A stretch of 64,000 nucleotides of DNA from Burkholderiales bacterium PBB1 (lineage in GTDB: Bacteria; Pseudomonadota; Gammaproteobacteria; Burkholderiales; Burkholderiaceae_C): the NCBI GenBank assembly GCA_002255905.1, contig NKIN01000004.1, positions 62,001 through 126,000 on the forward strand. The letters are read 5' to 3'. Positions 1 to 3,469 of the stretch are shown here, in pieces. A program made the position numbers and the translations under genes. Positions within the stretch are counted from its first letter, which is position 1, and the number at the start of each line of letters is the position of its first letter. The notes beneath the pieces were generated by a model. It was given only the letters and a program-made list of their open reading frames with translations, ran no database searches and was not told where the DNA came from.

Positions 1-587
1 AGCATGAACAGCTCGAGCGCCAGCGCCAGCACCATGATCTGGAACAACGAGCGTTTCAGACCACTGACCCCGCCGAGCAGCTGCCGCACCGTCACCGACT
101 GCCGCTCGACACGCGGCCGAAACTCGGGCGTGGGCGTCAGCTCCAGCACCACGCCGGTGTAGTGGTCCGACAACTCGGCCATCGTCAGCCGCCGGATACC
201 ACGCGCTGGATCATGCAGCACGGCCTTGCCGCCACGCAAGGCCACCAGCACGACGAAATGGTTCAGGTCCCAGTGCAGCACGCAGGGCAGCTGCAGCTGC
301 GGCAGGTGCTCGAGATCGGCGCGCAGCGCACGCGGCATCAGCTGCATCTGGCCGGCCATGCGGGTCAGGTCCATCATCGTGGCACCCTTGAGCGACAGCG
401 AGAAGCGCTTGCGCAGCGTCGGCAGGTCGGTCTTCAGCCCGTGGTGCGTGGCCACCATGGCCAGGCAGGCGAGACCGCATTCGGCCTCCTCGGTCTGCAA
501 CAGCATCGGCACCCGCGATTTGCCCCATCCGAGGCGCAGCGCCGACAGCGCGGCTGCCGCCCATCCAGGCCCGTTCGCCTCCTTCAC
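1..587 (-). CDS. Peptidase-domain ABC exporter (C39 type), 5' part only
   Basis: Bacteriocin-type exporter that cleaves double-glycine leaders and moves the product across the inner membrane. The frame stays open to the window edge, so only about 195 N-terminal residues are visible. They form a C39 cysteine peptidase domain: the Gln and catalytic Cys in QTEEAECGLACLAM, the His in LHWDLNHFVVL and the Asp in HDPARG. A hydrophobic stretch (LFQIMVLALALELFML) then opens the membrane domain; the ATPase part lies outside. The GTG start at 587 overlaps the stop of the adaptor gene by four bases (GTGA), implying translational coupling. An ATG about 25 codons in is an alternative start but would sit close to the active-site motif. 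Family is secure; the cargo is inferred to be the small peptide encoded upstream. Confidence 0.86.
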   Translation of the reverse strand, partial: MKEANGPGWAAAALSALRLGWGKSRVPMLLQTEEAECGLACLAMVATHHGLKTDLPTLRKRFSLSLKGATMMDLTRMAGQMQLMPRALRADLEHLPQLQLPCVLHWDLNHFVVLVALRGGKAVLHDPARGIRRLTMAELSDHYTGVVLELTPTPEFRPRVERQSVTVRQLLGGVSGLKRSLFQIMVLALALELFM

Positions 588-1870
588 AGCCGACCCGTGA
601 CGCTCAACAGCGGCTCGAAGATCCACTCGATCAGCCGGCGGCGATCAAGCAAGACGTCGGCCTCGAGCTGCATCCCGGCGACCAGGGGCTGCGCGACACC
701 ATAGGCCTGCACGGACTGCTGATCGAGCGAGACGGTGATTCGGTACAACGGCTCGGCCGTCGCCAACGCACCCTCCGCATTCACGCCAGACACCGCACCG
801 ATCGACAACGGCAGGCTCGCCAGCTCCGCGGCCTGCAAGGGGGTGCGCGAGACTTGCAGCACCTGCCCGGGGTGATGGCCAAACTTTTGGTACGGAAAGG
901 CCTGGTACCGCAGCTGCACCGTCTGCTCGGGTCGCAGGAAGCCAACCGCACTCGAGGGCGCGAACAGCTGCGCCTGCATCTTCGCGCCTTCCGGCAGCAG
1001 GCTGGCCAGCGCGGCTGTGGGGGTGACGCTGTCGCCGGGTGCCGCCAGCACGGCGGTGACCACGCCGGCTCGCGGGGCCCGCACGACGATGCGCTGCAGC
1101 GCGCCGCTCTCGACCGAGGCCTGTGTCAGTTCGGCGAGGCTGCGCTCGATGCCACCGCGTTGCGACTGCGCCTCGAGCTTGCGTTCCTGGCGCTGGGCCT
1201 CGAGCACCCCGATCTCGCGCTGCTGGGCGAGACGCTGGCGTTCGAGCGCCTGGGCCTGCGCGCGCAAACCCAGGATCTCCTCGGCCTTGGTCTGCACATG
1301 GGCGCTCGAGACGAAGTTGTCGGCCTGCAGCGACTGCAGCTGGGCCATGGCTTTCTGCGCCAACGCCAGCCGCTCCTGCTGGAGCGCCGCTTCGGCATCC
1401 ATCTGCTTCAGTTCGCGACGCATGTCCGCGATCTGCTGCGTCAAGGCGGCCACCCGCTCGCTTTCGAGGCGCTGACTCTGTTGGCTGGCTTCTTTCAGGC
1501 TGCGCGCCCGCGCCTCGATGCTGTCCTGCACGGCCGCCTGGGCATCGCCAGAAGCGGTGGACCGGTCGACAGAGATCACGAACAGGATGTCGCCCGAACG
1601 GACCGAGTCGCCCTCGGCCACCCGCCGCTCTACGACGGTACCCGCCTGGGGCGATGGCAGCCGCAGCACACCCTGGTCAGGCACCAGAACGCCGACGACG
1701 TGGGCCTTGCGGGTGTACTCGCCGTGAAACAGGAACCATCCGGTCGCCAGGGCCGTGACGGCGACCAGTCCCGTCAAGACCGAAAACGAAACTGGCCGGA
1801 CCAGTTGGATCCGGCCCAGCCAGGTGTTGCTGCGGTGTTCCAGCGCCTCAAGGCGAAACAGGTCGCTCAT
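584..1870 (-). CDS. HlyD/CvaA-family periplasmic adaptor of peptide export
   Basis: Membrane-fusion protein that would link the C39 exporter to an outer-membrane channel. It has a short cytoplasmic N-terminus, one membrane segment at about residues 28-48, a lipoyl/beta-barrel half, a long Gln/Glu/Ala-rich coiled coil at about 95-240, and a second beta-barrel half with the motif IVVRAPRAGVV. About 428 residues is normal for CvaA-like accessory proteins. The ATG giving MSDLFRLEALEHR is chosen because family members start this way; a GTG five codons upstream (1885) is possible. It lies between the GG-peptide gene (62 bp upstream) and the exporter (4-bp overlap), so the three genes look like one operon. 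No outer-membrane TolC partner is visible in the window. Confidence 0.87.
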   Translation of the reverse strand: MSDLFRLEALEHRSNTWLGRIQLVRPVSFSVLTGLVAVTALATGWFLFHGEYTRKAHVVGVLVPDQGVLRLPSPQAGTVVERRVAEGDSVRSGDILFVISVDRSTASGDAQAAVQDSIEARARSLKEASQQSQRLESERVAALTQQIADMRRELKQMDAEAALQQERLALAQKAMAQLQSLQADNFVSSAHVQTKAEEILGLRAQAQALERQRLAQQREIGVLEAQRQERKLEAQSQRGGIERSLAELTQASVESGALQRIVVRAPRAGVVTAVLAAPGDSVTPTAALASLLPEGAKMQAQLFAPSSAVGFLRPEQTVQLRYQAFPYQKFGHHPGQVLQVSRTPLQAAELASLPLSIGAVSGVNAEGALATAEPLYRITVSLDQQSVQAYGVAQPLVAGMQLEADVLLDRRRLIEWIFEPLLSVTGRL

Positions 1871-1932
1871 GGCTGCAAGTGTCACCGCCCGAGAGGCGGC
1901 GTCTCACGTTCACCGCCGAGAAAAAACCGGAA

Positions 1933-2097
1933 TCACCAGCGGCGGCCGGGTGCACCACCGCTGACTTCGCGCAGCTCTTCGGCTTTCAACTCGCGGGGGC
2001 CATTCACGGGCTCACGGCGCTGCTTGGCAGGGGTGTCCGTCGTCTTGGCGACAGGGGCTTGGCGAAACACTGGCGCGGTGAAGGGCAATTTACGCAT
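1933..2097 (-). CDS. Short double-glycine precursor peptide (54 aa)
   Basis: A small gene starting MRKLPFTAPVF and ending with the leader-type motif LKAEELREVSGG followed by only APGRRW. The ELxxVSGG pattern is the classic recognition site of C39 peptidases, and a C39 exporter and adaptor lie directly downstream. The GG pair is at residues 47-48, so cleavage would free a six-residue tail, far shorter than a bacteriocin. The start is set by a GAGGAG ribosome site six bases before the ATG; a longer frame from 2130 lacks one. Basic residues are frequent and there are no cysteines. It could be a signal peptide precursor, a substrate remnant, or a peptide whose N-terminal part is the active one. 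Coding status is supported by the ribosome site, motif and context; function is inference. Confidence 0.62.
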   Translation of the reverse strand: MRKLPFTAPVFRQAPVAKTTDTPAKQRREPVNGPRELKAEELREVSGGAPGRRW

Positions 2098-2124
2098 GTG
2101 AAACTCCTCAGAGGGGTGGACGGG

Positions 2125-2147
2125 ATGCACTCCGTGTGCATGGAGTG
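2125..2147. promoter_or_regulatory. Nested inverted repeats upstream of the GG-peptide gene
   Basis: Two overlapping perfect inverted repeats lie 28-50 bases upstream of the peptide start: ATGCAC/GTGCAT with a 5-base spacer (2125-2141) and CACTCC/GGAGTG with an 8-base spacer (2128-2147). They sit in the 138-bp gap between the LuxR-type gene and the peptide gene, where an operator or an mRNA hairpin near the leader would be expected. The sequence is not a canonical lux box. Binding by the neighbouring regulator is a guess from position. Confidence 0.4.
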
Positions 2148-2235
2148 ATTCCAGCAGCTCCCCTGCCGTTTCATAACTGTCAACTCTTACAGCTTGCGCT
2201 CAGCCCCGCGGGCGACTACCCGTTCACACCAACGC

Positions 2236-2949
2236 TCAAAAAATCAGCTTCAGCCGGAGCGCCTTGAGCACGGCCTGATGCTTGTTCACGCAATCGAGCT
2301 TGTGCGTCGCGTTGGTGAGGTGCAGCACTGCGGTGCGTTCACTGATCCCGAGGATGTTGCCCACCTCCCAGGCCGTCTTGCCTTCCATCGTCCAGCGCAG
2401 GCTCTCCAGCTCGCGGGGCGTCAGAGACACCGCACGGGCGTCCGGCACGGTCGGCAGCAGCACCCGTGAAGCGGCATCCTGGGCGAGGACGGCAAACAGC
2501 TGGAGATCGGCGACCATGCGGGTGAGCTCCTGCGACGCATGGGGCAGCGGGCGGTCTCGGTCGACGCCAAGCACGAAGTGCCGGCCTTCAGGCAGGTGCA
2601 GTGCCAGGCAGATGCCCGTGCGATATCCGTAACGTGCCTGCGCTTCCCACATCTCCGACTGACCGGCCGAGATGTAGGTCGTCTGGTCCCAGATGATGGG
2701 CACGCTCTTGCGCTTGCAATGCTGCATCACGGGGTCGTTCGCGCACTTGGCTCCTTCCTCGAGCGTCGCACTGAACGCCGGCGGCGCGTTGTCGATGGCG
2801 ATGAATTCGGTGTCGCCCAGGAAGTGGTCGATGACGGTGATGGCCGACACGGTGTCGAACCCCAGGCCACGGGCAAAGCCAACGATCTCCGATTGCAGAT
2901 CGTCACGGCTTTGCGCCTCGAACACCGATGAAAAGCCACCCTGAAGCAT
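2236..2949 (-). CDS. LuxR-family regulator with autoinducer-binding domain (LuxR solo)
   Basis: Transcription factor of 237 residues: an N-terminal autoinducer-binding domain (about 15-155) and a C-terminal LuxR helix-turn-helix (about 175-235, starting LTPRELESLRW). Relative to TraR, the Asp-Pro pair (ANDPVMQH), the Trp of PIIWDQ and a Gly in YGYRTG are kept. The positions matching Trp57 and Tyr61 are Phe and Leu, judged by counting back from the Asp-Pro. Such changes are typical of LuxR solos that bind something other than an acyl-homoserine lactone. No luxI-like synthase is in the window. The gene reads in the same direction as the GG-peptide/exporter genes, 138 bp upstream, so a sensing role for this locus is plausible but unproven. 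Confidence 0.9.
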   Translation of the reverse strand: MLQGGFSSVFEAQSRDDLQSEIVGFARGLGFDTVSAITVIDHFLGDTEFIAIDNAPPAFSATLEEGAKCANDPVMQHCKRKSVPIIWDQTTYISAGQSEMWEAQARYGYRTGICLALHLPEGRHFVLGVDRDRPLPHASQELTRMVADLQLFAVLAQDAASRVLLPTVPDARAVSLTPRELESLRWTMEGKTAWEVGNILGISERTAVLHLTNATHKLDCVNKHQAVLKALRLKLIF

Positions 2950-3154
2950 CAGAAACCGATCACTCCCGAACGCCCGACATTCGCTGTCTCCTCACCACAC
3001 ACCTGCAAACTTTGACAGGTGGCAAGCTCGACAAACCCGCCGACACTGCTGCAAAAGGCGGCCCGGTGACCGCTCTGGCGAAAGGCGGTACTCCATGACT
3101 CCCCCGTGGACAGTGCGTGCATGGCCCCCTCTATTGTGGCAGGCGGACTCTACG

Positions 3155-3469
3155 ATGGATTTGTGCCTGACACACATGCACACCCGCGTCGTGCATTCCG
3201 GCTTGCCGGACTCACCCTGCTGCGGGCAGACCCTGTGGGCCCGCACCAGCGACGACACCACCGCGGGCGTGGCCTGGGATTGGGTACAGCTGCACCAGGG
3301 TGTGGTCGCCATGGCCGATCCGATGGGCCTGGTGACCAACCTGATGCTGCTGGATGCCCACGGCGAGCCGATCCCCTCGTTGCAGGCAACACTGCATCTG
3401 AACGAGATCGTGCACGCCTTGCCCTGGCAGACCGAGGTCGAACGCGCCCTGGCTCGGATGGCTGCCTGA
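3155..3469 (+). CDS. Conserved-looking hypothetical protein (104 aa)
   Basis: Small soluble protein without a recognised domain. It has a Cys pair near the N-terminus (SPCCGQTLW) and a stretch containing ADPMGLVTNLMLL. The start giving MDLCLTHMHTR is chosen as the first plausible Met after a region that looks like promoter; an ATG at 3176 and one at 3095 are alternatives. It is divergent from the LuxR-type gene and convergent with the GNAT gene. Amino-acid composition looks like a real protein rather than a shadow, and no competing frame on either strand is better. No function is proposed. Confidence 0.55.
   Translation: MDLCLTHMHTRVVHSGLPDSPCCGQTLWARTSDDTTAGVAWDWVQLHQGVVAMADPMGLVTNLMLLDAHGEPIPSLQATLHLNEIVHALPWQTEVERALARMAA

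Follow-up and report, generated by a model that had tools for sequence, protein, structure and literature searches.

What does a LuxR-type receptor sense when its genome holds no LuxI, and what is made by the short gene next to it? The question is raised by the four-gene operon luxR > precursor > HlyD adaptor > C39 exporter, all on the minus strand from 2949 down to 1, at the start of a 64,000-nucleotide stretch of DNA (hereafter the window; G000:C15:62001-126000) from the 3.25 Mb genome of Burkholderiales bacterium PBB1. An earlier note on this DNA had listed a LuxR gene, a 54-residue precursor, an HlyD-like adaptor and a C39 exporter in one direction, and had proposed that cleavage after a double glycine (GG) frees a hexapeptide, APGRRW, which the LuxR solo reads. 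These parts are all present, with Pfam matches for receptor, adaptor and exporter. We consider it probable that they form an autoinducing circuit, in which a ribosomally made peptide would replace the product of LuxI as the ligand of a LuxR of the N-acyl homoserine lactone (AHL) type. The observations behind this reading are the linkage of the genes, a motif at the end of the precursor, its repeated copies, a lux box, and covariation between peptide and receptor.

The receptor, the peptide gene and its promoter in related loci

Related loci were collected with the LuxR sequence, and the best 80 of 125 found (61–97% identity) make, together with the window, a first set of 81; their hosts include Rhizobacter, Piscinibacter, Roseateles, Rubrivivax, Mitsuaria and many other Burkholderiales. 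LuxR at E<=1e-60 occurred in 88 of 399 genomes sampled from the window's family, representing 34 of 141 genera. In a class-wide sample of 369 genomes, LuxR at E<=1e-35 was found in the window's own genome alone, so that the system, as far as sampled, is confined to one family. A second set of 20 further loci was taken from the family-sample matches, picked for receptor arrays or low identity.

The receptor carries an autoinducer-binding domain and a GerE-type helix-turn-helix (HTH), and no other family scored above the cut-off. A search for Autoind_synth detected no real LuxI in its own genome; the single match was an exosortase acyltransferase (TIGR03694, 3.7e-74), so that this LuxR is a true solo, as the earlier note had said. 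Among 50 genomes, covering 50 of the 80 related loci, LuxI-family matches were present in six, above 60 bits in four, and absent from 44. Nine residues of TraR are invariant in AHL receptors: W57, Y61, D70, P71, W85, G113, E178, L182 and G188 (PMC4338825). Seven of the nine did not change in 50 LuxR sequences, including D, P, W and G of the ligand-binding domain. The full set of nine is not retained, since W57 is mostly Y or F and Y61 is variable in the 81 sequences. Known LuxR solos with changes at the nine residues exist (PMC4338825), and the two changes thus speak on the ligand and not on the family.

In 77 of the 81 loci, the window included, luxR is followed by an open reading frame (ORF) whose product ends in P-x2-4-W with no more than six further residues. 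As chance controls, the reverse strand gave 10 of 81, and 20 mononucleotide shuffles gave a mean of 14.2 and a maximum of 19. The spacing is P-x3-W in 76 of the 77 precursors and P-x4-W in one, and 68 of them end exactly with W. The motif is missing from four loci, L024 (at a contig end), L055, L066 and L081. The W-less tails of the last three, in which W was lost or was never present, can be set beside the tail GGLPRVGGW of L186 and L194 in the second set. An HlyD gene and a C39 exporter gene lie downstream in 65 of the 77 loci with more than 2.5 kb of downstream sequence. The earlier note had suggested a search for short ORFs with GGxPxxxW-like ends beside LuxR solos and C39 exporters in other genomes, and the linkage was borne out by these counts. 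In the second set, 17 of 20 loci have a P-x-x-x-W-type peptide, 14 of them by pattern and L186, L194 and L196 by reading.

A Shine-Dalgarno-like sequence stands before the start codon that we selected in 75 of the 77 precursors, against 15% at random positions, a count that is favoured by our preference for the start bearing such a sequence where several were possible. The leader signature L-12, L-7, V-4, G-2 and G/A-1 was found by pattern in 70 of 77. Such a GG-ending leader, encoded together with a C39 peptidase ATP-binding cassette (ABC) exporter, places the system in the double-glycine/C39 type. The 40 single-copy leader-bearing precursors have only 6–13 residues past the leader, below the size of class II microcins and bacteriocins; mature bacteriocins are tens of residues long. 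The constant unit is x-P-x-x-x-W, with the window's hexapeptide at the short end of the length range. APGRRW stands as the tail after GG in the window, whereas the family at large conserves P-x-x-x-W in longer and often repeated tails.

Two to five copies of P-x-x-x-W were found in 31 of the 77 precursors, for example SPKGTW four times (L079, L080), LPRGTW four times (L083) and GPNGGW five times (L040). In 26 of the 31 every copy has the same sequence, and the units differ across species. Codon differences among copies are synonymous in 113 cases and non-synonymous in 11, where random single changes would be synonymous in 24%. These figures point to selection on the peptide unit itself.

Some genes lack the leader. 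In the first set these are L022, L028, L034, L058, L068 and L070, whose ORFs have 18–20 aa and end in LP[RK]xGW, and L082 with five repeats; in the second set they are MQASRHATATIRRNPKGGW (L184), a triple-copy 31-mer (L192) and the 10-aa MQVLLPRNAW (L196). The leaderless state occurs in three LuxR clades, and luxR, box and tail are kept in these loci, which have no local exporter. On the conservation of tail relative to leader, raised in the earlier note, the unit persists where the leader is gone. No C39 domain was found anywhere in the genomes of the first-set leaderless loci (7 of 7). The rule that absence of a leader means absence of C39 from the genome nevertheless failed in the second set, where G278, G194 and G347 have one C39 match each elsewhere (33.6, 109.5 and 54.8 bits); loss of the leader is thus not strictly tied to loss of all C39. 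Where a leader-bearing locus has no exporter in the fetched stretch, a C39 domain is present elsewhere in the genome (7 of 7). In L079 and L080 an ORF downstream of the peptide gene resembles by eye a diverged C39-like domain, and no close exporter homologue was found.

In 77 of the 81 loci, against about 5% expected, the sequence CTG-N10-CAG is present between luxR and the peptide gene, within the first 160 nt past luxR. The box has the consensus CTGTAAGAGtTGACAGTt, and TgcAAT comes 23 nt after it, which sets the box near −43, a position that we take to be that of class II lux promoters. An additional lux-box-like site lies upstream of luxR in 67 of 81. The pattern CTGTAAGNNNTKACAG was found in 46 of the 50 genomes, exactly once in 34, and the reversed control pattern gave 2 matches over all 50. 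A shared regulon was considered and rejected, as the extra matches in the 50 genomes (20 stretches fetched) front no common gene family by eye. In G048 and G049, genomes with four-copy SPKGTW, a lux-box-like site (L130, L135) stands before a gene that looks by eye like a lantibiotic dehydratase; both have LuxI-family matches, so that a different LuxR may be the one to which these extra boxes belong. The window's own genome matches the lux-box pattern in three places. One of them is a perfect palindrome, CTGTAAGACCTTACAG (L004:4907-4922; G000:C16:432906-432921), just before another type I exporter. By eye, the C39-like domain of this exporter appears to be missing its catalytic Cys, and an HlyD gene comes next. 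No counterpart of this palindrome was found in G001 and G002, two close relatives whose assemblies are possibly incomplete; each has one site, at luxR-peptide, and in G003 the second site is surrounded by other ORFs.

Covariation of the tail with the LuxR ligand-binding domain

We compared the divergence of the tails with that of the other parts of the system in the 63 loci where exporter and HlyD accompany a P-x3-W tail. The tails diverged along with the ligand-binding domain (LBD), with a Mantel r of 0.40, or of 0.35 (p 0.0005) after correction for exporter, HlyD and DNA-binding domain (DBD); the loci are related, and the Mantel permutation ignores phylogeny. Once the LBD was given, exporter, HlyD and DBD added nothing in these loci. 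Medians at equal variable-column number were 0.32 for the LBD, 0.215 for the DBD, 0.19 for HlyD and 0.14 for the exporter. The DBD is encoded nearer to the peptide gene than the LBD, and simple linkage would therefore predict the opposite.

A scan limited to residue pairs that had changed four or more times on each of the two trees gave |phi|>=0.7 for 8 of 2805 pairs in the LBD, 0 of 396 in the DBD, 0 of 9075 in the exporter and 0 of 7645 in HlyD, the best HlyD pair being 0.70 after rounding. The top LuxR positions, in an unbiased scan with the exporter/HlyD tree, were 126, 114, 100 and 69. In a gap-free stretch of alignment they match LasR Ala127, Thr115, Phe101 and Ala70, which are all on a published list of ligand contacts (PMC9654057). 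Pocket positions make up 6 of the top ten against 15 of the 126 scanned (p 1.6e-4); the same six come out when the pocket is defined by the PMC9654057 list, in which a repeated 'Leu38' was taken as residues 39 and 40, affecting position 37 only.

LuxR69 is G in all 22 loci with T before W and in none of the 23 with G before W, where M, W, Y and others stand instead. This pair passed Pagel's test (p 8e-8) with 14 and 13 changes, and its pattern suggests complementarity of size. With K or R after P, position 100 is never K or R (0 of 36), whereas N after P pairs with K in 9 of 11, as complementarity of charge would have it. A before P goes with C at LuxR114 (Pagel's test, p 2e-6, 6 and 5 changes). 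A clear size or charge logic can thus be read from the residues at two of the four top positions. Outside the 63, 12 of 13 first-set loci fit the position-69 rule (L021 does not), and the K/R rule is violated in 0 of 15 loci from both sets. Within the second set, G before W never occurs with G at LuxR69 (7 of 7), nor K/R after P with K/R at LuxR100 (5 of 5), and F at LuxR126 is seen also with T or A before P.

The proposed circuit and its alternatives

In the circuit that we propose, the short gene would give a precursor that carries the signal, an x-P-x-x-x-W unit, at its C-terminus. To judge from their families, the C39 exporter and HlyD adaptor would, in most lineages, cut the leader after GG and export the tail. 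The peptide, re-imported or met intracellularly, would bind in the AHL-type pocket of the LuxR solo encoded beside it, as the covariation suggests. From the position of the boxes, the loaded LuxR would bind both the one near −43 of the peptide promoter and the one before luxR, activating both genes, and a divergently encoded RsaM-like protein may, speculatively, restrain the loop. For the earlier claim that a LuxR solo reads the peptide, the linkage, lux box, motif, homogeneity of copies, retention of the tail in leaderless genes and covariation all speak; the binding itself, like GG cleavage, export, return and activation, we infer from sequence. A broader conclusion, which seems likely to us though we hold it less firmly, is that the loci represent quorum sensing of a third class, distinct both from AHL-LuxR and from the RRNPP/autoinducing peptide (AIP) systems of Gram-positive bacteria. 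In it an AHL-type LuxR would have a ribosomal P-x-x-x-W peptide as its cognate ligand, and its pocket code would be partly readable at LuxR69 and LuxR100. Precursors with several copies, receptors in tandem arrays and leaderless signal genes of as few as 10 codons would belong to the same class.

Several observations weigh against these proposals. The AHL-pocket residues D72, P73, W87 and G112 are retained, so that LuxR may still bind an AHL. To free internal copies, a further processing step would be required, it is not obvious how leaderless forms would leave the cell, and 1–6 residues follow the last W in 9 of 77 precursors, one of which, L082, ends in WA. The scheme of the earlier note does not extend to all members, some lineages lacking both leader and local exporter. 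Tails without W occur in L055 (GGLPRVGG...), L066 (GGLPRAGG...) and L081 (TSVPEPLPRVG), and no peptide was found beside the LuxR paralogues of L185, L187 and L189 in the second set. In this diverged set A in the tail goes with C at LuxR114 in just 1 of 5, and T before W with G at LuxR69 in just 1 of 3.

The retained pocket might mean that LuxR senses an AHL or other small molecule, and that the short secreted peptide is only an antimicrobial or effector under its control. Seven TraR invariants are kept, with D, P, W and G of the ligand domain among them; GG leaders and C39 exporters commonly serve bacteriocins; and a LuxI-family match exceeds 60 bits in 4 of 50 genomes. We nevertheless regard this as quite improbable, because tail residues covary with the LuxR pocket and not with exporter or adaptor, because the tails of single-copy precursors are short for a bacteriocin, and because TraR W57 and Y61 are changed and a real LuxI is absent from the window's genome, as is any LuxI-family match from 44 of the 50. 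That luxR and peptide covary through common descent or linkage alone, with no contact, is very improbable in our judgement. The relatedness of the loci, to which the Mantel permutation is blind, would favour such an origin, as would the strong pairs of R at the second residue after P with LuxR 168, 90, 234 and 10, which are clade-level with 1–3 changes. The key pairs, however, changed 5 to 14 times, pass Pagel tests and show size and charge logic, and no strong pair was found in the DBD, which is nearer to the peptide gene, in the exporter, or in HlyD beyond its rounded 0.70.

Contact may also take place inside the producer, before or instead of export, so that the tail serves a private feedback or timer and the exporter a drain. 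The leaderless loci of both sets, which retain luxR and tail with no local exporter, and the lack of any C39 domain in all seven first-set leaderless genomes agree with this. So does the termination of 68 of 77 precursors exactly at W, by which the unprocessed C-terminus already displays the tail. We hold this to be unlikely, given that a dedicated exporter accompanies 65 of the 77 loci with room for it, that the leader is kept in 70 of 77 precursors, that C39 occurs elsewhere in 7 of 7 genomes with a leader-bearing, exporter-less locus, and that each of the three second-set leaderless genomes has a C39 match elsewhere.

Features of the locus and relation to known systems

The complete exporter has 735 aa with Peptidase_C39 (8.2e-34), ABC_membrane and ABC_tran domains. 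The window holds only its 5' part.

Features of the luxR-peptide locus in the window
Feature	Position	Strand	Evidence or remark
luxR solo, AHL-type ligand-binding domain + HTH, 237 aa	2236..2949	-	Pfam Autoind_bind 6.4e-23, GerE 7e-14
54-aa precursor, GG leader, tail APGRRW, end VSGGAPGRRW	1933..2097	-	AGGAG before ATG
Codons of presumed mature tail APGRRW (x-P-x-x-x-W unit)	1936..1953	-	sequence reading
HlyD-family periplasmic adaptor	584..1870	-	HlyD_3 9.7e-15
C39 peptidase ABC exporter, 5' part; gene continues outside window	1..626	-	whole gene: L003 5419-7626
lux-box-like site CTGTCAAAGTTTGCAG 5' of luxR	3003..3018	-	such box in 67/81 loci
lux-box-like site CTGTAAGAGTTGACAG, peptide promoter	2177..2192	-	CTG-N10-CAG <=160 nt after luxR, 77/81 loci
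-10-like TGGAAT, 23 nt past box (family consensus TgcAAT)	2148..2153	-	consensus + sequence reading
Gene divergent from luxR, weakly DUF4902/RsaM-like	3095..3469	+	kept here in 80/80 loci fetched

The product of the divergent gene weakly resembles DUF4902/RsaM. It matches PF16245 at E 9e-5 with 22.8 bits, under the curated cut-off of 25, and 13 of 23 RsaM-like members match that family at E<=0.01. A single-sequence query matched PDB 4o2h (BCAM1869) at E 0.0017, and a profile search of PDB with the RsaM-like family gave nothing at E<=0.01. The gene was present in 8 of 8 luxR-bearing and 0 of 16 luxR-less genomes (24 searched). An rsaM divergent from a luxR solo has been described as RsaM topology type 6 in Pelomonas, Thauera, Kinneretia, Albitalea and Xenophilus (PMC10710839). 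That type very likely includes members of the present loci, the overlap being by genus name only; the word 'peptide' does not occur in that paper, and the type 6 account in its excerpts has no peptide gene or exporter.

In L179–L183, 3–5 neighbouring luxR paralogues (about 49–69% identical to the window's) stand with one P-x-x-x-W peptide gene each, possibly a diversification of receptors.

To our knowledge, many LuxR solos have no known ligand. If our reading is true, it gives a ligand to a LuxR clade present in 88 of the 399 genomes sampled from the window's family, whose members live in water and soil, and it implies that an AHL pocket can be remodelled to take peptides and that peptide quorum sensing with a cytosolic receptor exists in Gram-negative bacteria. 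It would also offer many genetically encoded signal-receptor pairs, with specificity perhaps readable from sequence. Named isolates of Roseateles, Rhizobacter, Mitsuaria and Piscinibacter carry the system, which makes it directly testable. We found no description of such a system in searches of an open-access library; preprints and subscription journals may hold one.

Among known systems, non-AHL ligands of LuxR solos include photopyrones and diketopiperazines (PMC13220807). With LuxI/LuxR quorum sensing the present loci share the receptor family and fold, the lux box, the layout for autoinduction and an RsaM-like neighbour (PMC13220807); they differ in having no synthase, in a presumed ligand made by the ribosome, the P-x-x-x-W peptide of the adjoining gene, and in the changes at W57 and Y61. 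The Gram-positive RRNPP systems (Rap/Rgg/NprR/PlcR/PrgX) likewise have a gene for a short linear peptide adjoining that of a cytosolic receptor-regulator (PMC13220807, PMC10075063). Here, however, the receptor is of Autoind_bind and GerE type and not of an RRNPP family, and the peptide has a GG leader, a C39 exporter with HlyD adaptor, Gram-negative hosts and repeated units. Class II microcins and bacteriocins have in common the leader with L-12, L-7, V-4 and GG and export by a C39 exporter with HlyD adaptor, whereas the tails here are short, under lux-box control and tied to the receptor pocket. The yeast alpha-factor precursor carries several copies of one short pheromone, a design shared by the multi-copy precursors, but here the host is bacterial and the receptor intracellular. 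The parts are members of the LuxR and C39 families, and the whole is neither LuxI/LuxR quorum sensing nor RRNPP: the circuit would work like LuxI/LuxR with the synthase swapped for a ribosomal signal gene and, like RRNPP, with a peptide and a cytosolic receptor.

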